The notes beneath the pieces are model-generated. The model saw only the letters and a program-made list of their open reading frames with translations. It was not told the DNA's origin and did not search any database. Positions 1 to 28,136 of a stretch of 64,000 bases of DNA are shown one piece after another; position 1 is the first letter of the stretch; each line of letters opens with the position of its first letter. The position numbers were made by a program, and so were the translations under genes. The DNA comes from Saprospiraceae bacterium (GTDB taxonomy: Bacteria > Bacteroidota > Bacteroidia > Chitinophagales > Saprospiraceae). The DNA is taken from NCBI GenBank assembly GCA_022842725.1, contig JALHOZ010000018.1, positions 1 through 64,000 on the forward strand. Reading direction: 5' to 3'.

Positions 1-359
1 ATTTGTAATGTTTCATTAGGAAGCACTGCACAAATAACTACGGCAACAGCTCCTGAATTTTGTGCATTCAAACTTTTAACATCAAAAGCACAGGTACCTC
101 TGTCCAGAAAAACAACTTTTCCTGATCCATCACCCGTAAGTGTCGTACAGCCTTGTGTTGGGCTACCAAAAAATGCGCCAGCCGCAATGGTATTGTTTGA
201 TTGGCTTCCAAACAAAGCTCTGGCAATCCTGTAATCTCCTGAAATGCCGGAGGGAGCGTTGACCGTCAAGGTGTTTAACTCCTGTGCCTGAAGTGCAGAA
301 AAGTTTGTATGAATCCAACAAACCAAACCAAAAAAAATGCAATAATATTTATTTTTCAT
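1..359 (-). CDS. PA-domain secreted protein, N-terminal fragment (runs off left edge)
   Basis: Only the first 119 codons are in the window; the gene continues beyond base 1. The ATG at 357-359 opens a signal peptide (Lys-rich start, hydrophobic stretch, probable cleavage after residue 26 in QAQ). A protease-associated (PA) domain-like segment follows, with the motifs FLDRGTCAFDVK and GAVAVVICA. After the signal peptide it matches the next gene (584-3007) at about 75 of 94 residues, while the signal peptides differ. The two are therefore tandem paralogues sharing the secreted module. PA domains commonly mediate protein interaction or substrate access in secreted proteases and adhesins; catalysis cannot be judged from this fragment. 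By analogy with its neighbour it is probably a T9SS substrate, but its C-terminus is not visible. Confidence 0.8.
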   Translation of the reverse strand, partial: MKNKYYCIFFGLVCWIHTNFSALQAQELNTLTVNAPSGISGDYRIARALFGSQSNNTIAAGAFFGSPTQGCTTLTGDGSGKVVFLDRGTCAFDVKSLNAQNSGAVAVVICAVLPNETLQ

Positions 360-9754: not shown

Positions 9755-10888
9755 TCAGTCACACAAGATGTTTTCGTACGCGAGACCTTGTCGATAGCCG
9801 TTTTTGATAGCCATTTGTAAATCATTACAGGCTTTTTTGTCCTGTTCCAACTTCTTATGAACATTTGCCCGGTTGAAGTAAGCTTCTGCTAATTTCGGGT
9901 CATGTGCAATAGCTTCATCAAAATCCCTCAAAGCATTTTTATAATCATCCAATGCTAGATAACACAAGCCTCTTTGCATGTAGGTATTTGCCTGATTATT
10001 GCCTTCGATTGTCAGTATTTTTGAATATAATAATTGTGCTTTGGGATAGTTTTTAAGTTGATATTGGGCCATAGCCTGGTTTTGTAATGCTCCCGGATGA
10101 TCGGGTTGGATGTCCAGACATATGCTCAGATCAGATACTGCACTATTTAAATCCTGTAATTGTATTTTGGATATCGCTCTGAGATGGTAAGGCTCTGCCT
10201 CGTTGGGGTGTAGCCGGATATACTGATTCAGATCCTGCAGCGCTTCATTATATTTTTGCAAACTCAGGTAACATTTGGCCCGTTCAATGATACTTTTGGT
10301 ATATTTATTATCTTCCGAGTAAGCAGCGGTAAATCCTGAAATAGCCGAGAAGGTGTCTTTGTTTTTTAAGTGACAAACCGCTTTATTGTAAAAAACCTGA
10401 GCACCTTTGGTTCCGCAACTGATCGCTTTTTCGAAAGAACCTATAGCCTCATGATATTTTTCGGTCTTCATAAAAGCGATTCCCATGTTGTTCCATGCTT
10501 TTTCATTAACAGGATCCTTTTCTGTCACTTTTGAGTAATAAGAAATGGCTTCACTATATGACTGTTTGCTGAAATAAACATTTCCTAAACCAAGATAGGC
10601 TTTGTGATAGTCTGAATCCAAAGAAATACATGTTTGGAAATCCTGAAGTGCTGTTTGGGTATTACCAATGTGTAAATGAATGTTGGCCCTGTTGTAGTAA
10701 GCAGAAAGAAAATCATTTTTTGCCAAAATCGTTTTATCATACCAGACAATGGCTCCGGCAAAATCTTTTTTATTGACACATTCTATCGCTTTGGCAAAAT
10801 GTTCGTTGGCTTCATTCTGACCGTTACCGGAAAATGAAAGAAAAAGAAAAAAAATGCATATTAAAAGTGCGGTTTTTGTGTTTTCCAC
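9755..10888 (-). CDS. Exported tetratricopeptide-repeat protein
   Basis: A 377-residue protein consisting of a signal peptide (ending near SGNGQ) and about ten consecutive TPR units of 34 residues. These are recognisable by repeated patterns such as AWNNMGIAFMKTEKYHEAI and AYFNRANVHKKLEQDKKAC. TPR arrays are protein-interaction scaffolds; no enzymatic domain is present. The start is a GTG (10886-10888) directly before the signal peptide. The gene is convergent with the YceI gene and has no close co-directional neighbour, so a partner cannot be inferred. Confidence 0.85.
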   Translation of the reverse strand: MENTKTALLICIFFLFLSFSGNGQNEANEHFAKAIECVNKKDFAGAIVWYDKTILAKNDFLSAYYNRANIHLHIGNTQTALQDFQTCISLDSDYHKAYLGLGNVYFSKQSYSEAISYYSKVTEKDPVNEKAWNNMGIAFMKTEKYHEAIGSFEKAISCGTKGAQVFYNKAVCHLKNKDTFSAISGFTAAYSEDNKYTKSIIERAKCYLSLQKYNEALQDLNQYIRLHPNEAEPYHLRAISKIQLQDLNSAVSDLSICLDIQPDHPGALQNQAMAQYQLKNYPKAQLLYSKILTIEGNNQANTYMQRGLCYLALDDYKNALRDFDEAIAHDPKLAEAYFNRANVHKKLEQDKKACNDLQMAIKNGYRQGLAYENILCD

Positions 10889-18303: not shown

Positions 18304-19482
18304 ATGATAATTATGAAAAACTGGTATTTTATTACAATTCTATTTTTGTCTTCACCATTTTTTGGATATTCTCAATGTCCTGAAGTTAGATTTATCATGG
18401 TCGATGCCTGCACAGGCTCAGGAAATGAACCGGATAACGAGTTTTTTGTGTTGGATTCCGGAGTGGGATTTAATGTCGATGACCTTGGTTTTAGTACACC
18501 TACAGGTACCGTTACGGCAAGTAGTTCTAATAATTCAGATTTTAATGCAACCAATCCTTGTCCTTCATGTGTCACGGGATGTACCATCAATTTTGTCACC
18601 AATGGAGGAAGTGTACCTGCCAATCAACACGTCGTCGTTTTTACTTCGAGAAATCTTAATTTTTTGACTTACGACCTCACCGGTCTGTGCATAGGTGGAG
18701 AAATTTACGTTTTGGTAGCCAATGCAACGCCGGGTTCAGGCCAGTTTGCCAATTGGTCAGGAGCCAACTGTTCAGGATGTAATCCGTCTTCAGGAGATCC
18801 TTTCCGTACCTTAAATGTCACATTGACAGGAGGCTGTAATCATGATGCAGCCTACAGCAGATGTCAGCTTCGCAATATGGCCGGGAATTGTGGTGCTCAG
18901 GACGGTGGTGCGGTCACTTTTGAAAACGGGGTAGCGCAATACAACAATAATGGTTGTTCCGCACCGGTTTTGCCGGTCTCATTCGGTGATTTTGTAGTGA
19001 CAAAAATAGATGATGTTGTCGAATTGTTCTGGACGACGTATCAGGAAGTGAACAATGACTTTTTTACGGTCGAGCGCTCAATAAATGGTTATGAATTTGA
19101 AGCTGTCGGCAAAGTAAAGGGTGCCGGATTCAGCGATTCCAGGAAGACATACAGTTTTGAAGACCGGACATCTGTGGACGATTACGTTTTTTACCGGATA
19201 AAACAAACAGATTTTGATGGAAAAGCCGGGTATTCTGAAATCCGTATGGTAACAAATGACCCAAAAGCTGTTGAGGTGAATTTTTCCGGACCTAATATTT
19301 ACATCAGCGCCGGTGAAAATACATGTTCTCTGGCAATATATTCACTTTCGGGAGTTTTTTTGTCAGTAGTTCACGACAGGACAGGTGATTTTGAATATAG
19401 TTTGGAAAACCTGCCTCCGGGTATGTATATCCTCAGGGTTCAAAATGGTTTTGCCTGGGAATCCTATAAATTTGTCAGATAA
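18304..19482 (+). CDS. T9SS-secreted surface protein, unknown function
   Basis: A 392-residue exported protein with a signal peptide ending in FGYSQ; translation may begin at the second ATG (18313). The N-terminal half (FIMVDACTGSGNEPDNEFFVLDSG) is Cys- and Gly-rich and resembles the lamin-tail-like modules of Bacteroidota surface proteins. A FN3-like segment follows (VELFWTTYQEVNNDFFTVERSINGYEFE, FYRIKQTDFDGKAGYSEI). The end (LAIYSLSGVF through LPPGMYILRVQNG) is a T9SS C-terminal sorting domain. The role is probably adhesion or matrix. Its last 8 bases overlap the 3' end of the convergent PIN-domain gene. Confidence 0.8.
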   Translation: MIIMKNWYFITILFLSSPFFGYSQCPEVRFIMVDACTGSGNEPDNEFFVLDSGVGFNVDDLGFSTPTGTVTASSSNNSDFNATNPCPSCVTGCTINFVTNGGSVPANQHVVVFTSRNLNFLTYDLTGLCIGGEIYVLVANATPGSGQFANWSGANCSGCNPSSGDPFRTLNVTLTGGCNHDAAYSRCQLRNMAGNCGAQDGGAVTFENGVAQYNNNGCSAPVLPVSFGDFVVTKIDDVVELFWTTYQEVNNDFFTVERSINGYEFEAVGKVKGAGFSDSRKTYSFEDRTSVDDYVFYRIKQTDFDGKAGYSEIRMVTNDPKAVEVNFSGPNIYISAGENTCSLAIYSLSGVFLSVVHDRTGDFEYSLENLPPGMYILRVQNGFAWESYKFVR

Positions 19483-19927
19483 TTCTGTTTTTTTTAGGTT
19501 GCTTATTTTCTGTAAAGTAGTCGGCAAGAAAATTTTTGCAGTTTTTTACCGGAATGTCAGAAAAATAAAAATCTTCTTCATTTTCAGTGATGATTGATGT
19601 ACATTGTGCACCTTCTGCAGCAAAATATTCAAGGCCGTCTTCAAAGTCGTGGATTTTGACATTTGAAATGGTTTTTTTGACCATCTCTTCATTCATGGCA
19701 CAAATACCCATATGATCAATGAGTGTGTTTATTTTTTGTTTGGCCTTTTGGGTCCCACATTTTTTTTCAGCAAAATAAAAGGCAATGGATAGGCAAACAG
19801 GTGATGTATACAAATTGATACCGGGTTTGTCCGCCAGACTCAATATCCGTGCGGCATGGGTAAATAAAGGATATTCTTTGTTTAATACAGCGATGATTAC
19901 ATTAGCATCCAAAAATAGTCTTTGCAT
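19475..19927 (-). CDS. PIN-domain ribonuclease toxin (VapC-like)
   Basis: A 150-residue PIN-fold protein. The N-terminal FLDANVIIAVL holds the first metal-binding Asp (Asp7). HDFEDGLEYFAA carries the mid-protein acidic cluster, and IITENEEDFYFSDI corresponds to the usual ITRN..DF block, with Glu in place of the typical Arg. PIN toxins cleave RNA and are neutralised by a co-encoded antitoxin. The DUF6364-like antitoxin gene ends 8 bp upstream, forming the usual antitoxin-toxin order. RNA target unknown. The 3' end overlaps the convergent T9SS gene by 8 bp. Confidence 0.85.
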   Translation of the reverse strand: MQRLFLDANVIIAVLNKEYPLFTHAARILSLADKPGINLYTSPVCLSIAFYFAEKKCGTQKAKQKINTLIDHMGICAMNEEMVKKTISNVKIHDFEDGLEYFAAEGAQCTSIITENEEDFYFSDIPVKNCKNFLADYFTENKQPKKNRII

Positions 19928-19935
19928 AAAAACGG

Positions 19936-20193
19936 TTATTTTTTTGAATCGAAGTATTCAGACCTAACTTTTTTGCGGGATTTGGGTCGGGTGATGTATT
20001 CGGCCTGACCTTCGGCTACGCCGTGAACCCAATCTGATATATCCAGCTCTTCCAGACTTTTATAGGATTTTTCTGTCATTTTTTTGTAGAGAAATTCAGT
20101 GAGCCGTGACAGGCTGATGTTTTGCCCTTCGGCAAATTCTTTTGCTTTGCGAATGACTTCTGCATCAAATGATAAAGTAACTTTCGTATCCAT
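19936..20193 (-). CDS. DUF6364-type antitoxin (ribbon-helix-helix-like)
   Basis: An 85-residue protein starting MDTKVTLSFDAEVIRKAKEF, a beta strand followed by two helices typical of ribbon-helix-helix DNA-binding antitoxins. The C-terminal half is charged (ITRPKSRKKVRSEYFDSKK), as expected for the toxin-wrapping tail. It precedes the PIN toxin by 8 bp on the same strand, so the pair is probably co-expressed and autorepressed, though no operator was identified. DUF6364 is the best family guess. Confidence 0.8.
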   Translation of the reverse strand: MDTKVTLSFDAEVIRKAKEFAEGQNISLSRLTEFLYKKMTEKSYKSLEELDISDWVHGVAEGQAEYITRPKSRKKVRSEYFDSKK

Positions 20194-20514: not shown

Positions 20515-23451
20515 GTGTATCTCAATACCCACACCTATTACAGCCTTCGTTACGGGACATTGTCTCCGGAGGAATTGCCGGCACTGGCAAAATCCTTTGG
20601 TGTGACGGCTATGGTATTGACAGATATCAATAATACTTCCTGCGCTTTCCAGTTTGTGACCGCCTGCCGGAAACAAAACATCAAACCCATCCTCGGTATC
20701 GAATTCCGGCAGGACGGAGATTTTTTGTACCTGGGGATTGCCCGCAACGATGAAGGGTGGAGAGAATTGTGTTCTCTTCTGACTGAATCTTCCCTCAATG
20801 GCGAACCTTTACCGTCCGAAGCTCCGGTTCTCCAACATTGTTATATTGTGTACCGTAAGCTTCCCAAAGGGGTGGAGTTGTTGCACGACTATGAATATGT
20901 TGGTGTCCGGCCTTCGGAGGTCAACCATCTGTATTCATCGTATCTCAAAAATTATCAGCATAAACTTGTTGTATTCAGCCCTGTGACTTTTGCCGACCAG
21001 GATGGGTTTAAGGCACATAAACTTTTGCGCTGCATCGATCTGAATATTGTCATCGGCAAGCTCGATTCTAAGGCTTGTGCCATGTCCTCGGAGATATTTT
21101 ATCCGCAGGATTACTTCGAAAAAGTATATGAAACGTATCCGGCTATTCTCGAAAATACCCGAAATATCCTAAACTCCTGTCATACTGAAATGGAGGCTTC
21201 ATACCTGCACAACCGACGAACCTTCACCGGAGATAAGGCAGATGACTATAAACTGCTGACAAAACTGGCCGTCAGCGGATGTGACCGGAGATATGGCCCG
21301 GGACATAAAAAAGCGATGGAAAGAACCCTTCGTGAGCTGAAAGTAATCGAAAAAATGGGTTTTTGTGCTTATTTTCTCATTACCTGGGATATTGTGCGGT
21401 ACGCACATTCTGTCGGGTATTTTCATGTAGGGCGGGGGAGCGGCGCCAATTCCATCGTGGCTTACAACCTGGATATTACGGATGTCGATCCATTGGAACT
21501 CGACCTCTACTTCGAACGTTTTATCAATCCGCACCGGAGTTCGCCGCCTGATTTCGACATTGATTTTTCATGGAATGAAAGAGATGACGTCACAGATTAT
21601 ATTTTTAAAAGATACGGAAAAGAAAATACTGCGCTACTGGCGACATACAATACCTTCAAAGGCAAATCCATCATCCGTGAGTTGGGCAAAGTGCTTGGAT
21701 TGCCCAAGGCGGATATTGATACCATCGTCGACGAGCCTATGGCTACAGAAAAACACCATCCTTTTGCCCGTCATATATTTAAGTATGGAAAGATGATCGA
21801 AAAGTTTCCCAACTATCTTTCCATTCATGCCGGCGGGATACTGATCAGCGAAAGACCGCTCAACTATCACACGGCTTTGCTTATGATGCCCAAGGGATTT
21901 CCGGTTGTACATTTTGATATGTACGGTGCTGAAGATTTGGAATACCACAAATACGATGTCCTGTCCCAAAGAGGTCTCGGCCATATCCGGGATGCAGTGG
22001 AGTTGGTCAGACAAAATCAGGGCAAAGCAATCGACGTACACAATGTGGCGTTGATCAAAGAAGATCCCAACGTCAAAGCTCAGTTGCGTTCGGGTCACTG
22101 TATCGGCTGTTTTTATATCGAGTCACCGGCGATGCGGGGACTCTTGCACAAGTTGCGTTGTGACAATTACGTTCACCTGGTGGCGGCATCTTCTATCATC
22201 CGGCCCGGTGTGGCACAATCCGGGATGATGAGGGAGTATATCCAACGTTTTCACAAGCCCGACAGTTTCAGTTATTTACATCCCGTTTTTGAAGAACATC
22301 TGGGGGAAACTTTCGGAGTGATGGTCTATCAGGAAGATGTGATGAAGATTGTCCATCATTTTTCCGGTCTCGATCTGGACGAATCTGACGTATTGCGGCG
22401 GATTATGACCGGTAAAAAAAAGAGTTCCGACACCTTCTATCGCCTTCAGGAAAAGTATTTTAAAAACTGTAAAGAAAGAGGGTATCCAGACGATCTGATC
22501 AAAGAAGTATGGCGACAGATTGAAAGTTTCAGCGGATATTCCTTTTGTAAGGCGCACTCGGCCAGTTTTGCGGCAGAGTCCTTTCAGAGTCTTTACCTCA
22601 AGACCTATTTTCCGTTGGAGTTTATGACCGCTGTGATCAACAATTTTGGGGGTTTTTACAGTACAGAGCAGTATATCCATGAGGCCAGGATGTGCGGAGC
22701 AAAGATTGAGGCTCCCTGTGTCAACAACAGTACATATCTGACGAATATATATGGCAAGTCGATATATATCGGATTTATTCACTTGTCCAACCTCGAACGG
22801 AAGATTGCATTGGCCATAGTCGAAGAGCGGTTGACGCACGGCGATTACCGAAGCCTTAAGGACTTTGTCAATCGGGTGGATATGTCCAAAGAACAACTTG
22901 AGATACTGATCAGGATCGGAGCTTTCCGGTTTACGGGGATGAACAAGTACGAGCTCATGTGGGAGAAAAATGCCGTGCACAATCCATTGATCAAACACGT
23001 TCATTGTGCTACTTTTTTTGAAGTCGAACCGGAAAATTACGCCTTACCGGTTTTGTCGGAGACCGAGCACGAACAATCTTTTGACGAGATTGAGTTGTTG
23101 GGTTTTCCCTTGTGCAATCCCTTTGACTTGCTGGTGACGAAATTCCGGGGAGAGATCACCGCTTCACGGATGAAAGATTGTATCGGCAAAACCGTCAGGA
23201 TGGTAGGATATTATGTCTGCCGCAAGTGGGTCACCACGATCAAAGGTGATATCATGAATTTCGGCACCATGACCGACGTGGAAGGCCATTTTTTTGACAC
23301 GGTACACTTTCCGCCCAGCCTGGCAAAGTACCCGTTCAAGGGCAAGGGTTGTTATCTTGTGTTAGGCAGGGTAGTGGAAGATTTCGGTTTTCCCAGCCTC
23401 GAGGTCGACAAGATGGAGAAGCTGCCGTGGGTCAAGGACGGGAGATATTGA
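20515..23451 (+). CDS. dnaE2: DNA polymerase III alpha subunit, short error-prone type (DnaE2/ImuC-like)
   Basis: A 978-residue C-family DNA polymerase, shorter than replicative DnaE1 (about 1150 or more). The PHP domain occupies residues 1-200 (THTYYSLRYGTLSPEEL). The polymerase palm has GRGSGAN (307-313) and the catalytic triplet region PDFDIDF (345-351). GYSFCKAHSASFA marks the fingers region, an HhH segment lies near residue 800, and an OB-fold ends the protein (VRMVGYYVCRKWVTT), closing with a conserved tail (KMEKLPWVKDGRY). It probably serves translesion synthesis. The usual imuA/imuB partners are absent. GC content is visibly higher than in neighbouring genes. Start is GTG. Its last 63 bases are repeated downstream at 26359 and, more diverged, before 27870. 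Confidence 0.88.
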   Translation: MYLNTHTYYSLRYGTLSPEELPALAKSFGVTAMVLTDINNTSCAFQFVTACRKQNIKPILGIEFRQDGDFLYLGIARNDEGWRELCSLLTESSLNGEPLPSEAPVLQHCYIVYRKLPKGVELLHDYEYVGVRPSEVNHLYSSYLKNYQHKLVVFSPVTFADQDGFKAHKLLRCIDLNIVIGKLDSKACAMSSEIFYPQDYFEKVYETYPAILENTRNILNSCHTEMEASYLHNRRTFTGDKADDYKLLTKLAVSGCDRRYGPGHKKAMERTLRELKVIEKMGFCAYFLITWDIVRYAHSVGYFHVGRGSGANSIVAYNLDITDVDPLELDLYFERFINPHRSSPPDFDIDFSWNERDDVTDYIFKRYGKENTALLATYNTFKGKSIIRELGKVLGLPKADIDTIVDEPMATEKHHPFARHIFKYGKMIEKFPNYLSIHAGGILISERPLNYHTALLMMPKGFPVVHFDMYGAEDLEYHKYDVLSQRGLGHIRDAVELVRQNQGKAIDVHNVALIKEDPNVKAQLRSGHCIGCFYIESPAMRGLLHKLRCDNYVHLVAASSIIRPGVAQSGMMREYIQRFHKPDSFSYLHPVFEEHLGETFGVMVYQEDVMKIVHHFSGLDLDESDVLRRIMTGKKKSSDTFYRLQEKYFKNCKERGYPDDLIKEVWRQIESFSGYSFCKAHSASFAAESFQSLYLKTYFPLEFMTAVINNFGGFYSTEQYIHEARMCGAKIEAPCVNNSTYLTNIYGKSIYIGFIHLSNLERKIALAIVEERLTHGDYRSLKDFVNRVDMSKEQLEILIRIGAFRFTGMNKYELMWEKNAVHNPLIKHVHCATFFEVEPENYALPVLSETEHEQSFDEIELLGFPLCNPFDLLVTKFRGEITASRMKDCIGKTVRMVGYYVCRKWVTTIKGDIMNFGTMTDVEGHFFDTVHFPPSLAKYPFKGKGCYLVLGRVVEDFGFPSLEVDKMEKLPWVKDGRY

Positions 23452-23580
23452 GGGGGGTGAATAAGACTATAAACAAAGGTCATTGAATCACAAGAGAGAA
23501 TAAATTCAGAATATTGCGATGAGAGTTGAGGTGTACAAGGTAATTTAAAAAGATATATATTTGTTCCTTAAATTATAAAT

Positions 23581-26217
23581 ATGAAATACAAATCAGTATT
23601 TTTTTTGCTTTTTTTCTTTTTTAGTTTTTCTCCGGTTTATGCTCAGGATACATTAGGGTTTAGTGCGGATTTGTATAAATATTTAATAAAAAATGATGAT
23701 TTTAACAAGGATGGTATCCTAAGTGAGAGCGAAATAGACTATGTTTGTTGTGTTCAGATTGTAAACTTTAAATCTATTAAAGGATTAAGCCGATTGAAAA
23801 ATCTAAAGTCAGTAACTATAGAAATAGGGGATTTTAGTTTGGATGAGTTGTTTGAATTAAAAGAACTGAAAAGGTTGACGGTTACATCAAAAAAAGGCAG
23901 AAAAACATTTACAATACCACAGAAATGTAATTTTTCATTGGAGCTTACCAATTTGTCCATAGATAATTGTGTTTTTAATATTGAAGATAATAAATTTGAG
24001 AATATTAAAGAAATAAATATAAATGGATGTGAAATAATTTATGATATATCAAAAATATTTTATTATAATAATATAATGGAATTAAGTATAAATAATTCAC
24101 TGATAAATCACGATATTCATATTAATAGTGTTAATGAATCTCTGGAGAGTTTAACTCTTAATTCAATCAATTTGCCTGGGATTCCAAATACAATAAATAA
24201 TCTTAAAAACCTTAAGTCGCTTTCTGTGGCGAATAATAATCTTAGTAATTTACCTGAGTCTATAAAGTTATTAGAAAGTTTAAATAGTTTGAATTTGAGT
24301 GAAAATAATTTTGACTCATTTCCTGAAATATTACTTTATTTAAAAGAGTTAAAGTATTTGTATTTAATCAGAAATAAAAAAGAAATTGCTTTACCTGAAA
24401 ATATTAATCGTCTGTCAAAACTCGAAAACGTACCTATTATTTTGAATTGTATAAATGGTATACCGGAGGAAATTTTTAAAATTAAAAATTTAAAAAATTT
24501 AACATTGAGCAATTGTAATCTTAAAACGATTCCAAAGAAGGTATTTGCCTTAAATAAACTTGAAAGCTTGATTCTTAGCAATAATCAAATTACCGAAATA
24601 AGTCCTGACCTGTTAAAATTAAAGTATTTAAAATTATTGAATTTAAATAGTAATAAATTATCAAGGATTCCTGATTGGATTGGTAGTTTTGAATATCTGA
24701 GTGAATTGAATCTTAGTCATAATGAGATAAGTGATTTTGATTTCAATATAACTAAAATGTGCCATTTAAAAATCGTAAACTTGGATTTTAATAAGTTAAA
24801 GGATTTTCCGTATGTTCTTAATCATTGCAAAAATCTTGAATTCCTGACGTTGAATAATAATAGTATTTCTTCCTTGGATCGTTTAAAATATGGCGACTTT
24901 AATAAGATCACTGAGATCGAGATTAGTAACAATTTGATTTCAGAGATACCGGGTTTATTTCATCATAAATTTGATTTGGAAATAAAAGAAAAGACTTATG
25001 ATACTTCTATGGAAGAACCTTATAATAATCTTAATATAGTTGAAGAAGTTTTAGTTCCCAGAGAAAATATGGCATTATTTACATGTAATATTTTATCATC
25101 AGCCAGAGTTTATTCAAAATACAGGTACAAGGTAAAAATAGTGGATTGTTTTTATGGTGTGTGCGATATGGACACATTTTATGTAAATTCTGATAAATTT
25201 TTCAAAATTGGTTCATATTGTATTATTAACGGTCATTTGGATATACATAACAAATCCCTTGATAGTTACTTTAACTATTTTCAAATTAATGCAACTTATG
25301 AAGGTTTTGACGACAAGAGTTATATGGCAGGCCGGAAAGAGTATTTTGAAATAGCAGCGCAACTCTCGCAATACAGGAAAACCAAATATACTGGGAAAGT
25401 TAAATTAAATGGTAAAGATTTTACATATGCAGAAGGAGAGTTCATAAAGGGTAATCCGCATGGTACCTGGAGTATATATTTTGCTCATAAAGAAATATCT
25501 GGCATTATTAAGTCAGAGTTGAATTTTTATAATGGTAAGTTGCATGGTCCGACTACAAAATTCCTTTTCAAAAACGGAATTTTGCATAAAAGTTTCGTAG
25601 AAGATTATATTCATGGTAGTTTGCAAAAAAAGGAAGAATTTAAATATATATATGAAAAGCTTTACACGATTGAAGGTGTAAAGTATTCTTACCAAGCTCC
25701 ATTCAATCTTAAATATATTTACACCATAGATGCTGATAATCATGACACTTTGGGCACTAGTTTGAATGTTGATTTAAATCAATCCGATAATTCAAAATCA
25801 AGTTATGATAATATAGTTTCTCTCCCCTCATTTTACCATGGGAAATGGCAATTTGTACATTTTAAAAATGTACGTGCCACAGGTGAATACTTTATGGGAA
25901 TGAAAATAGGCGTATGGTATTCTAATGAGCGTTGCTGTTCAGATACCATTGCGATTTATGAAAAACCTGAAAATAATAAAAACATTATTGCCTATTATGG
26001 TAATGGAAAAACCATGATAGAAGGCTCTATCATAAATAAGAAGAAAGAAGGAATATGGAAAGTTTTTAGTGAGAAAGGTGATTTAACCAAAACTTTTTCC
26101 TATAAAAATGATATTTTAGATGGTAACGTTGATATAAATATGTCTAGCCAAATTATTAGACGTACATATATTGATGGAACACTCATTCATGAAGAAACCA
26201 TTAAAAAAACTAATTAA
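23581..26217 (+). CDS. Exported leucine-rich-repeat protein with EF-hand-like loop and YwqK/MORN repeats
   Basis: An 878-residue protein with a signal peptide ending in VYAQ. Residues 40-51 form an EF-hand-like Ca loop (D40, N42, D44, G45, E51). About 15 LRR units follow between residues 60 and 470, with patterns such as LKSLSVANNNLSNLPESI. A linker with NTF/CUB-like beta strands (ILSSARVYSKYRYKVKIVDCFYG) leads to C-terminal MORN/YwqK-like repeats (GNPHGTWSIYF, GKLHGPTTKF, KKEGIWKVF). It is very AT-rich and lies between dnaE and a displaced dnaE tail, both consistent with transfer. LRR and MORN modules suggest protein or surface binding; no enzymatic motif was seen. No terminal T9SS domain is evident. 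Confidence 0.75.
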   Translation: MKYKSVFFLLFFFFSFSPVYAQDTLGFSADLYKYLIKNDDFNKDGILSESEIDYVCCVQIVNFKSIKGLSRLKNLKSVTIEIGDFSLDELFELKELKRLTVTSKKGRKTFTIPQKCNFSLELTNLSIDNCVFNIEDNKFENIKEININGCEIIYDISKIFYYNNIMELSINNSLINHDIHINSVNESLESLTLNSINLPGIPNTINNLKNLKSLSVANNNLSNLPESIKLLESLNSLNLSENNFDSFPEILLYLKELKYLYLIRNKKEIALPENINRLSKLENVPIILNCINGIPEEIFKIKNLKNLTLSNCNLKTIPKKVFALNKLESLILSNNQITEISPDLLKLKYLKLLNLNSNKLSRIPDWIGSFEYLSELNLSHNEISDFDFNITKMCHLKIVNLDFNKLKDFPYVLNHCKNLEFLTLNNNSISSLDRLKYGDFNKITEIEISNNLISEIPGLFHHKFDLEIKEKTYDTSMEEPYNNLNIVEEVLVPRENMALFTCNILSSARVYSKYRYKVKIVDCFYGVCDMDTFYVNSDKFFKIGSYCIINGHLDIHNKSLDSYFNYFQINATYEGFDDKSYMAGRKEYFEIAAQLSQYRKTKYTGKVKLNGKDFTYAEGEFIKGNPHGTWSIYFAHKEISGIIKSELNFYNGKLHGPTTKFLFKNGILHKSFVEDYIHGSLQKKEEFKYIYEKLYTIEGVKYSYQAPFNLKYIYTIDADNHDTLGTSLNVDLNQSDNSKSSYDNIVSLPSFYHGKWQFVHFKNVRATGEYFMGMKIGVWYSNERCCSDTIAIYEKPENNKNIIAYYGNGKTMIEGSIINKKKEGIWKVFSEKGDLTKTFSYKNDILDGNVDINMSSQIIRRTYIDGTLIHEETIKKTN

Positions 26218-26640
26218 TAATTAATATCTCAGGAATTTAGTAAGCCTTATTCGATATGTTTTTGATTACTCATTTAAAAAGCCAAGTCGCAATTTCTATT
26301 GTCGTATATTTATTATAGATTTTGTATTATTATGAGAAAGCTATCAAAAGCACTGCGCTTTTCCAGCCTCGAGGTCGACAAGATGGAGAAGTTGCCTTGG
26401 GTGAAGGATGTGCGGTATTGATTTTAATTATGAATTGGTAATGTGTGAATTACGAATCTTAAAGTATCAAATCGTTTTAGATTGATGGAAGTAATGCTAT
26501 TCCTTTTTGACAAATTGACATTTTTTTGAAAGGTCAATATACATGCTATCCAAATATGTAGACTTCTTTAGATATTTAACTGCCTTATCAACACATCACC
26601 GTTTTTTTGGTTACTAAGTCATTACATCATTTCAATACGA
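26218..26640. other. Intergenic region carrying a displaced dnaE tail
   Basis: Apart from the dnaE-tail copy at 26359-26421 this AT-rich region shows no gene. The in-frame ATG at 26332 gives a 29-codon reading frame that ends with the tail. Confidence 0.5.
26359..26421 (+). pseudogene. Displaced dnaE 3'-end copy (tail 2)
   Basis: The last 20 codons plus stop of dnaE recur here with 55 of 63 bases identical to 23389-23451, including an uninterrupted 28-base match. The encoded tail differs by two residues (Pro to Ser, Gly to Val). It retains the reading frame and stop codon, and an ATG 27 bases upstream (26332) opens a 29-codon frame. It follows the LRR gene and precedes the MBL gene. It is read as a remnant, not as a functional gene. 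Confidence 0.85.
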
Positions 26641-27666
26641 ATGAACATTTTTATTTATATAGTTTTTGTGTTGGCAGTCTTGAGCATCTGCTCGTGTCAC
26701 ATGTTATCTGTCCGCAAGTATGATGGCTCAGTGAGCGACCATTTTGACGGTAAAAAATTCATACATGCCGACGGTAATAAAATGGGCAGTTTTCGTGATC
26801 TGATGCGTTATCAAATGACCCACAAAAGAACAAAGTGGCCAAGGATTGATACCGTTTTACCACAGCCTGCTATTGTGCATGTAGCGTACGATGAGATAAG
26901 ATATAAGGTTATCAATCACGCTACTGTACTACTGCAGCATCATGGGGTAAATGTTTTGACCGATCCGGTTTTCGGAAAAAGAGCCAGCCCATTCACCTGG
27001 TTGGGGCCAAAAAGGCACAGGCCGCCTGCGCTTAGTATCGATGAGTTGCCAAAAATTGATATCATTTTATTGTCACATGACCACTTTGATCATCTCGATA
27101 TTTTTTCGCTTAAAATTTTGGTCAGTAAATGGAATCCTAAGATTTTTGTTGGTCTGGGATTGAAAACCTACTTAGCCAAATTTGACTTAACCAATGTTGT
27201 GGAAATGGACTGGCAACAACAAATCGATTACATGGGACTGAAACTTACATTTTTACCGGCAAAACACTGGAGTAATCGTGGATTTTCTCCCTTCAGAACA
27301 TTGTGGGGAAGCTATATGATTTCTAGTCCTAAACGACATATTTATTTTGCAGGAGATACAGGCTTTTATTCGCACTTTGAAGACATAAAAGTTGCTTTTC
27401 CTACCATAGATTTAGCTTTAATTCCTATAGGGGCGTATATCCCTCGCTCATTTATGAAATATGTACACATGCCTCCTGAAGACGCTATCAAGGCACATAA
27501 AATTCTTAATCCAAGATTAAGTGTGGCTATTCATTGGGGAACTTTCCAACTTACAGGTGAGGGAATGTACGAACCCGTAGATCTACTTCAATCACTATTG
27601 AACAAAGAAGGAATTCTGAACTTCACATATGATAAAGAACATAATCAGTATGGTTTTTTGGAGTGA
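26641..27666 (+). CDS. Metallo-beta-lactamase-fold hydrolase (NAPE-PLD/UlaG-like), membrane-anchored
   Basis: A 341-residue MBL-fold enzyme. The metal-binding signature SHDHFDHLD (H146, H148, D150, H151) is intact, further ligands lie in LPAKHWSNRG and FAGDTGFYSHF, and AIHWGTFQL near residue 300 supplies the late histidine. The overall pattern, including NHATVLLQHHGVNVLTDPVFG and WLGPKRHRPPAL, resembles N-acyl-phosphatidylethanolamine phospholipase D-like hydrolases. The N-terminus (VLAVLSICSC) is a signal or lipoprotein-type anchor, so it acts outside the cytoplasm. The substrate is probably a phosphodiester lipid, but that is inference. It lies between two displaced dnaE tails. Confidence 0.85.
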   Translation: MNIFIYIVFVLAVLSICSCHMLSVRKYDGSVSDHFDGKKFIHADGNKMGSFRDLMRYQMTHKRTKWPRIDTVLPQPAIVHVAYDEIRYKVINHATVLLQHHGVNVLTDPVFGKRASPFTWLGPKRHRPPALSIDELPKIDIILLSHDHFDHLDIFSLKILVSKWNPKIFVGLGLKTYLAKFDLTNVVEMDWQQQIDYMGLKLTFLPAKHWSNRGFSPFRTLWGSYMISSPKRHIYFAGDTGFYSHFEDIKVAFPTIDLALIPIGAYIPRSFMKYVHMPPEDAIKAHKILNPRLSVAIHWGTFQLTGEGMYEPVDLLQSLLNKEGILNFTYDKEHNQYGFLE

Positions 27667-28136
27667 GAATTGAATAGCAAAAGCAATTTCGACACCCCAA
27701 AGCTTATAAACTACAATTACCTATTATTTTTCACCGAACCTGAAGGCTACATATTTCAGGGCAATGGTTGCTATATTGCATTAGGTAATGTAGTGAATGA
27801 TTTTGGCTTCCCGAGTTCGGAGTTAAGCAAGATGGAAAAACTACCTTGGATCAAGGACGGGAGGTATTGAGTGGATTTGGAGTTTGAGCCTGTGATCCTG
27901 CCTGAAAATAAGATAATCCTGCTTTTTACTCATCGTAATTTTCAAAAGTATGATGTAGTTGCACAAACTATTAAGATCACAGGACTTTCGAGGGAAATAA
28001 TGTAGATTTAACATAAAAAAGCACCTTTTGATTGAAATTTAATGAAGATGTTACATTTTATTTTATTCCTCTAATATTTATCATATGTTTGAGCAGATTG
28101 TTAAAAAAGTGTACATTTGTTTAAATTATTAATGGA
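27667..28136. other. Intergenic region carrying the distal dnaE tail
   Basis: The first 200 bases contain the diverged dnaE tail (to 27870). The remaining 266 bases up to the ArsC-like gene are AT-rich and contain no gene that can be supported. Confidence 0.5.
27757..27870 (+). pseudogene. Displaced, diverged dnaE 3'-end copy (tail 3)
   Basis: The encoded 37-residue stretch from QGNGCYIALG to KDGRY matches the dnaE C-terminus at 27 positions and ends at the same stop position. Weaker similarity may extend upstream to about 27736. The reading frame is open from 27670 with only a TTG start and unrelated N-terminal residues, so it is treated as a remnant. It is more diverged than tail 2, as expected for an older copy or one from another dnaE allele. 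Confidence 0.8.

Follow-up and report, generated by a model that had tools for sequence, protein, structure and literature searches.

Integron cassettes consist of a cargo and a distal repeated sequence, their arrays grow at one end, and toxin-antitoxin genes are among their cargos. The dif (pdif) modules are bounded by recombination sites and lack a recombinase of their own. Integrative and conjugative elements (ICEs), integrative and mobilizable elements (IMEs), and cis-mobilizable elements (CIMEs) can accrete in tandem at the 3′ end of a target gene, and units devoid of an integrase (CIMEs) are known, as described in the part of PMC5704250 that treats accretion. In a survey of 80 species, the relevant portion of PMC5635113 reports that half of the gene-exchange hotspots have no visible mobile elements and that DNA entry is inferred from recombination in neighbour genes. 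The present analysis concerns a 64,000-nucleotide (nt) stretch of DNA, referred to as the window, from a Saprospiraceae bacterium (GCA_022842725.1, contig JALHOZ010000018.1, positions 1 to 64,000 of the forward strand), in which the 3′ end of a short dnaE gene is followed by two further copies of that end, each lying behind a cargo gene. We found no account of such dnaE-end arrays in the literature, which does not prove their absence from print. The explanation to which we give an even chance of being correct is that the short dnaE carries an insertion hotspot at its 3′ end, which grows by recombination through the accretion of units made of cargo and a foreign dnaE end.

The array is located on contig C18 of the window's genome, G000 (G, C, and L numbers denote genomes, contigs, and loci), and includes the following features.

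20515..23451, plus strand: short dnaE, a second DNA polymerase III alpha gene (978 amino acids, aa) and the anchor gene of the array; Pfam PHP, DNA_pol3_alpha, finger, and HHH_6 domains
23389..23451, plus strand: tail 1 (T1), the resident dnaE 3′ end, from sequence comparison
23452..26358, plus strand: unit 1, the leucine-rich repeat (LRR) cargo gene and its flanks, from G+C content and Pfam
23581-26217, plus strand: LRR gene, 878 aa; Pfam LRR_4, LRR_8, and LRR_14
26359..26421, plus strand: tail 2 (T2), a 63-nt copy of the dnaE 3′ end, 55 of 63 positions identical, from sequence comparison
26422..27725, plus strand: unit 2, cargo with the metallo-beta-lactamase-fold gene, from G+C content (36.9%) and Pfam
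26641-27666, plus strand: metallo-beta-lactamase-fold gene, 341 aa; Pfam Lactamase_B_2
27726..27870, plus strand: tail 3 (T3), an older or more foreign dnaE 3′ end of ~145 nt, from sequence comparison

Tail 2 is 87.3% identical to tail 1, keeps the reading frame, and ends with TGA; one mismatch falls within the first 33 of its 60 sense bases and seven within the last 27. The match has an E value of 5.9e-16 in a search of the whole 4.6 Mb genome. Tail 3 can be aligned with its own dnaE over 113-117 nt at 75%, ending at or just past 27870, and 69% of 42 residues are identical at the protein level (E = 2.7e-14, genome search). It also matches the dnaE end of a relative, G006, over ~145 nt (window 27728-27871, 79%), and its last 120 nt share 79% identity with G006 dnaE and 73% with the resident dnaE. 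Chance repeats are ruled out for both copies. Another tail-like match, at C14:107536, was discarded as probably due to chance, lying in another frame within an open reading frame (ORF) taken for hsdM. The positions of tail 2 and the longer tail 3 in the initial annotation, together with the order of dnaE, LRR gene, tail 2, metallo-beta-lactamase-fold gene, and tail 3, all hold in nucleotide and protein comparison. The copies are direct-oriented and downstream of dnaE, as would be yielded by tandem duplication, in which local duplicates of dnaE and its neighbours have decayed to their ends. However, no fragments of the short dnaE besides the three ends were found in a whole-genome protein search, the remaining matches being pieces of the separate 1176-aa main DnaE on contig C1. 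The view that the tails are not remains of a whole dnaE duplicate agrees with the absence of other dnaE remains between the window tails.

The closest public loci to the window dnaE are metagenome-assembled genomes filed as Saprospiraceae or Bacteroidetes. Among the ten genomes of the window's genus, eight have the short dnaE according to a profile of its tail, which has no match in G008 and G009. Tail-only copies are present in the window (two), G004 (one), G007 (two), and G002 (one), and are absent from G001, G003, and G005. The G002 copy is on another contig than the G002 dnaE, and its placement behind dnaE is only probable. The cargo between the dnaE ends differs from genome to genome: G004 carries YefM and YoeB genes, and G007 carries a 208-aa gene without a Pfam match followed by two AAA ATPases. 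No gene order downstream of dnaE is conserved in this genus, and an empty site could therefore not be reconstructed in it. Of its eight dnaE-bearing genomes, three have a contig that breaks off 0.6-1.3 kb past the gene (G002:C15, G004:C348, and G006:C43, the last 1.2 kb past dnaE); such ends would be expected if the region varies within the population.

In the whole family, the tail profile matched 286 of 398 genomes at E<=1. Among the matches listed, at least 76 genomes besides the window's have several profile matches, and the re-examination covered all 76 of these multi-match genomes. Tail-only copies were recognized in G002, G004, G007, G311, and G310, and the rest of the multiple matches are whole or decayed second dnaE genes or weak, chance-like matches. 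In G311, the decayed copy lies behind dnaE (locus L112). In G310, an orphan tail of 22 residues and a stop codon (L226:1134-1202, G310:C95) is present on a 3.9 kb contig with no other dnaE piece, and no whole dnaE was found in that genome by profile. G052 was rejected as an array, since its two matches are a whole dnaE behind a dinB-like gene and a decayed dnaE far off. Separately, a 3.3 kb contig of G190 (L079, G190:C85) begins inside a 51-nt dnaE end unlike the dnaE listed for G190, which is either another array or a binning error. In public dnaE loci, downstream dnaE-end copies at E<1e-10 were found in 4 of 80 (L085, L086, L112, and L128); L085 and L086 are from the same genomes as G004 and G007, and L128 is G437, which belongs to another genus.

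A second case is found in the window's own genome. Behind the main dnaE (C1:27606-31136, 1176 aa) lie two genes, of 1315 and 501 aa, whose products are probably secreted to judge from their termini, and after these comes a copy of the main dnaE tail. This copy, located behind 5.7 kb at C1:21526-21919 (locus L170), is ~390 nt long, 96% identical, and ends at the stop codon; 11 of its 12 changed codons are silent. The main dnaE end has a match in 104 of 148 genomes searched and a second match in the window's genome only. A broader idea, which we put forward as rather doubtful, is that DNA polymerase III alpha gene ends in some Bacteroidota are landing sites of an integrase-less, cassette-like system whose units, made of cargo and a foreign dnaE end, would be exchanged between strains and species and pile up at the resident dnaE end, and that both dnaE genes are used here.

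The genus of G437 provides the comparison that the window's genus does not. Of its 35 genomes, five have a DNA match to the G437 dnaE end, and G437 and G439 carry extra copies, whereas G438 has none. The order in G437 is dnaE, a PIN-toxin unit, T2, a KAP NTPase and a PIN gene, T3, a zeta toxin, and T4, beyond which lie a YoeB remnant and a conserved gene beginning MYNT; the tail matches are 182 nt (T2), 92 nt (T3), and 69 nt (T4) long. In G439, whose joined map rests on a 141-nt contig overlap, the YoeB remnant is directly behind its own dnaE end, and one extra tail lies 0.55 kb downstream. T4 and the YoeB remnant of G437 (9965-10193) align with the G439 dnaE end and the same remnant over 230 nt at 88%, and the alignment runs across the tail and past it. 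Because T4 and its neighbour thus align with the dnaE end of G439 and the same neighbour, the comparison shows, as judged from the two aligned genomes, that three units (6.6 kb) entered G437 at its dnaE end and that G439 is without them there. The empty site sought by the initial annotation has therefore been obtained in this other genus, and not in the window's genus with its lack of downstream synteny. Its proposal of repeated insertion at the dnaE 3′ end is supported by this site and by the different cargo ending at dnaE-end copies in G004, G007, G437, and probably G002; of the two results that it had named as refuting, a gene order conserved in all relatives and tails belonging to a full decayed dnaE duplicate, neither was found.

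Conserved genes flank variable content in G437, G438, and G439, the gene beginning MYNT being common to all three, and no tyrosine recombinases, the only recombinase class searched, are present there. Such an arrangement is what plain hotspot turnover would look like, in which double homologous recombination in flanking core genes replaces the content between them, and unequal or illegitimate joins on the right-hand side leave the tails as incidental scars. This explanation, which we regard as unlikely, draws on the part of PMC5635113 according to which no mobile elements are evident in half of the hotspots of 80 species and recombination in the flanking core genes is seen in many. In addition, in the last 78 codons of the window dnaE and G002 dnaE, silent sites are alike at 47 of 71, compared with 101 of 212 upstream (p = 0.009, uncorrected, the sole one of seven pairs). 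Trees of the main DnaE place G000 differently before and after alignment column 900, a weak result with long branches. Flanking-gene turnover, however, predicts neither tails nor tail ends near the stop codon, and tail lengths in kilobases would be expected from it.

The origin of the scraps can be addressed by the nature of their differences. Silent changes were counted between each copy and its own dnaE in the aligned stretch only, for which the neutral expectation is 18-23% of changed codons. Six of the nine copies show an excess over this value (p from 5e-6 to 0.02), with silent changes in 11/13 changed codons for G437 T2, 10/14 for G437 T3, 5/7 for window T2, 13/24 for window T3, 4/6 for G007 T2, and 3/4 for G002 T2. 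By this excess, the silent-rich scraps belonged to the ends of working genes after parting from the resident end and are not decaying local duplicates. Together with the closeness of window T3 to other species, the insertion seen between G437 and G439, and the loss of similarity near the stop codon even for copies whose last 38-45 nt match exactly or that are 96% alike over ~390 nt, these mostly silent differences make tandem dnaE duplication a very improbable, disfavoured explanation, although the three copies without silent excess would accord with it.

In three-way comparisons with a sister genome, the downstream copy has more private differences than the resident end in all 11 of 11 cases, and alignment of the tails with the dnaE of relatives, as the initial annotation had suggested, places window T3 nearer to G006 and G007 dnaE than to its own dnaE. 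Ageing or decay of the copies contributes to their private differences. Since the copies, and not the resident ends, are the outliers and T3 is closest to G006 and G007, the foreign end is likely, not proven, to lie at the far border of an inserted unit while the resident end stays, and the scraps behind dnaE are probably from other strains. The annotation's wording, that each arrival brought its own tail and pushed the old one downstream, is not supported by these outliers.

The borders of the copies are uneven on the two sides. On the right, resemblance to dnaE is lost no more than a few bases from the stop codon, also in copies whose last 38-45 nt are identical; the L112 match is broken by a gap and resumes at the stop. 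On the left, the borders vary from ~40 to 190 nt from the stop codon, which speaks against one att crossover. All mismatches are at least 37 nt from the end in G004 T2, G007 T3, and G437 T2, and 7 of the 8 mismatches of window T2 are within its last 27 nt; the identical blocks may be read as exchange inside the dnaE end. In the window, the copy nearer to dnaE has the higher identity (87%, against 75% for the farther one), and G437 roughly follows this trend (92, 86, and 88%).

A mechanism that could produce these features starts from a unit consisting of accessory cargo followed by the terminal 40-190 nt of a dnaE that comes from a different strain or species. On joining at the resident dnaE end, the unit would leave dnaE intact, place its cargo immediately after the dnaE stop codon, and have its far border marked by the foreign end. 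Each later unit would again enter at the dnaE end, and older scraps would tend to lie farther off. Joining would occur by ordinary recombination between the incoming and resident dnaE ends, in the simplest form by one crossover of a circular unit in the shared end or by a double crossover with linear DNA, and units would pass between relatives.

The same array could be built by integrase-mediated accretion, in which the units are remnants of integrative elements, CIMEs, or units served in trans, the dnaE 3′ end is attB, the tails are att sites that restore the gene end, and the recombinase has been lost or is elsewhere. Direct repeats of a gene 3′ end, a sharp border near the stop codon, and tandem accretion fit ICEs, IMEs, and CIMEs as far as the treated part of PMC5704250 goes, and Phage_integrase (PF00589) matches occur elsewhere in each of 13 genomes searched, with seven in G000. 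This family, on the other hand, has no match on C18 or on any contig that carries another array, in line with the annotation's remark that no integrase is visible; the search was for the tyrosine class, and serine recombinases were not searched. A crude tyrosine-recombinase motif search of 92 loci, in which many contigs end near dnaE, gave one ORF, located 6 kb from a dnaE without tails. The left borders, at ~40-190 nt and at ~390 nt for the main dnaE, are found instead of one crossover point. Furthermore, of the four copies that contain a clear identical block, three have their divergent part to its left, opposite to what a restoring att piece would leave. Loose tails are also lacking: plasmid and phage collections gave no tail copies, just short weak matches in unrelated genes, and viral contigs gave nothing for the window motif or the A1 profile. 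A G437-tail match on a contig filed as viral in IMG/VR (L220) was rejected as a loose tail, being a whole dinB-dnaE operon, whose first gene we take to be dinB, followed by a presumably SRAP-like gene. Integrase-mediated accretion appears somewhat improbable.

Several points weigh against accretion by ordinary recombination between dnaE ends. Three of the nine copies lack silent excess (G004 T2 0/3, G007 T3 1/5, and G437 T4 3/7), and five of the nine have no clear identical block. Only one sister comparison is significant on its own (window T3, p = 0.0002), and the 11 comparisons overlap. Whether G007 shows an age gradient varies with the alignment used: the near and far copies have 92 and 87% identity in one and 85 and 87% in another. 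Random homologous exchange would not give right borders so regularly near the stop codon unless the units already end there, nor does this reading account for the founding step, in which a dnaE end terminating at the stop codon was first joined to a cargo. No identical unit was found in two genomes, and no circular unit was seen, none having been looked for. Finally, the main and short dnaE ends share no visible sequence by eye, yet both carry copies; this lack of shared sequence also argues against a single sequence-specific recombinase.

Control searches indicate how particular the copies are to the dnaE end. With up to five upstream 150-nt pieces of each dnaE used as queries, one clear copy was found elsewhere (L142, upstream), whereas the tails gave nine copies in five loci, the window among them; a 32-nt control match in L128 merely continues the L128 tail copy. 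The L142 copy (L142:3399-3459) is an internal dnaE piece and not an end, aligned over 65 columns at 94%, and is found 7.5 kb upstream, where a neighbour gene starts beside it. Tail-only copies of other genes are rare in the control scans. Among 909 ORFs in 89 loci, dnaE included and eight loci being partly places already counted, two were found, of 27 nt (L139) and 33 nt (L155); the other matches, L140 among them, resemble paralogues or pieces of them. A rough test of 4/80 against 3/~1,400 gives p = 2e-4, or p = 0.003 with the same-genus pair counted once, with approximate denominators and with dnaE centred in its loci and therefore often having more downstream sequence than its neighbours. 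In the window's genome, the clear tail-only copies among 659 ORFs (0.86 Mb) are those of the window dnaE and the main dnaE; in addition, C1 gave a tandem pair, C4 a 39-nt repeat located 5 nt past a gene, and C5 a repetitive stretch. The copies in L155 (1765-1797) and L139 (10118-10144) lie ~0.7-0.9 kb downstream of the gene end that they repeat, behind a small gene, and the genes are unrelated, so that the process behind the tail copies may extend beyond dnaE. L211 (1356-1420, G000:C2) is a scrap like the end of the last gene in a cluster of three, all small and lipoprotein-like, and it lies behind the first of them (65 nt, 86%).

Both cargo genes of the window look acquired, because they have few or no close matches and their G+C content is below that of dnaE (27.5% in unit 1, 36.9% in unit 2, and 46-51% in dnaE). 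At E<=1e-40, the LRR gene has no match in any of 59 other genomes searched, and the metallo-beta-lactamase-fold gene has its top identity, 43%, in another genus and a single match within its own genus, at 34% in G006. Searches with defence models matched the KAP NTPase of G437 to PifA/QatA models and, weakly, the 512-aa protein of G439 and both ATPases of G007; there was no match for the LRR gene, the metallo-beta-lactamase-fold gene, the zeta toxin, or the 208-aa protein of G007. Given such sparse matches, the label of defence islands would be overstated for this cargo. Directly upstream of dnaE, at window 19475-20193 on the minus strand, there is a toxin-antitoxin-like pair (PIN_3 and DUF6364), and both sides of the short dnaE may gather genes of this kind.

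The scraps can be typed, ordered, and compared with donor lineages, whereby the order of entry, the donor, and the point of exchange become readable. If the units prove mobile, they would represent a very small format of gene exchange built on the end of a housekeeping gene. The dnaE units resemble integron cassettes in combining cargo with a distal repeat and in growing at one end; unlike cassettes, their repeat is a coding gene end without an attC-like fold, and no integrase gene was found on the array contig. Folding of ten strands, both strands each of tails from the window (1-3), G437, and G004, gave z-scores from -1.80 to +1.61, negative only for both strands of tail 3, and attC-like folding was rejected as unconvincing; no tyrosine recombinase occurs on C18, where the IntI-specific family was not searched. 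The dif (pdif) modules of Acinetobacter are likewise small, often toxin-antitoxin modules with no recombinase of their own, whereas the dnaE units are bordered by direct, uniformly oriented copies of a gene end.

With regard to flanking-recombination hotspots, the variable genes between two conserved genes and the lack of visible mobility genes in G437, G438, and G439 are similar. In contrast, the downstream flank is not conserved in the window's genus, and the dnaE units leave, on one side only, a gene-end scrap that can be traced to a lineage. The likeness to ICE, IME, and CIME accretion consists of units bordered by direct repeats of a gene end (window, G004, G007, G437, and G439), stacking at one site, and toxin-antitoxin cargo. 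The dnaE units differ in measuring 0.5-4.4 kb with no integration or transfer genes seen, in having no related integrase-bearing element found at the dnaE site, and in tail lengths that vary several-fold, which is at odds with a single crossover position. Collectively, the dnaE arrays share some, not all, of the defining features of each of these systems.

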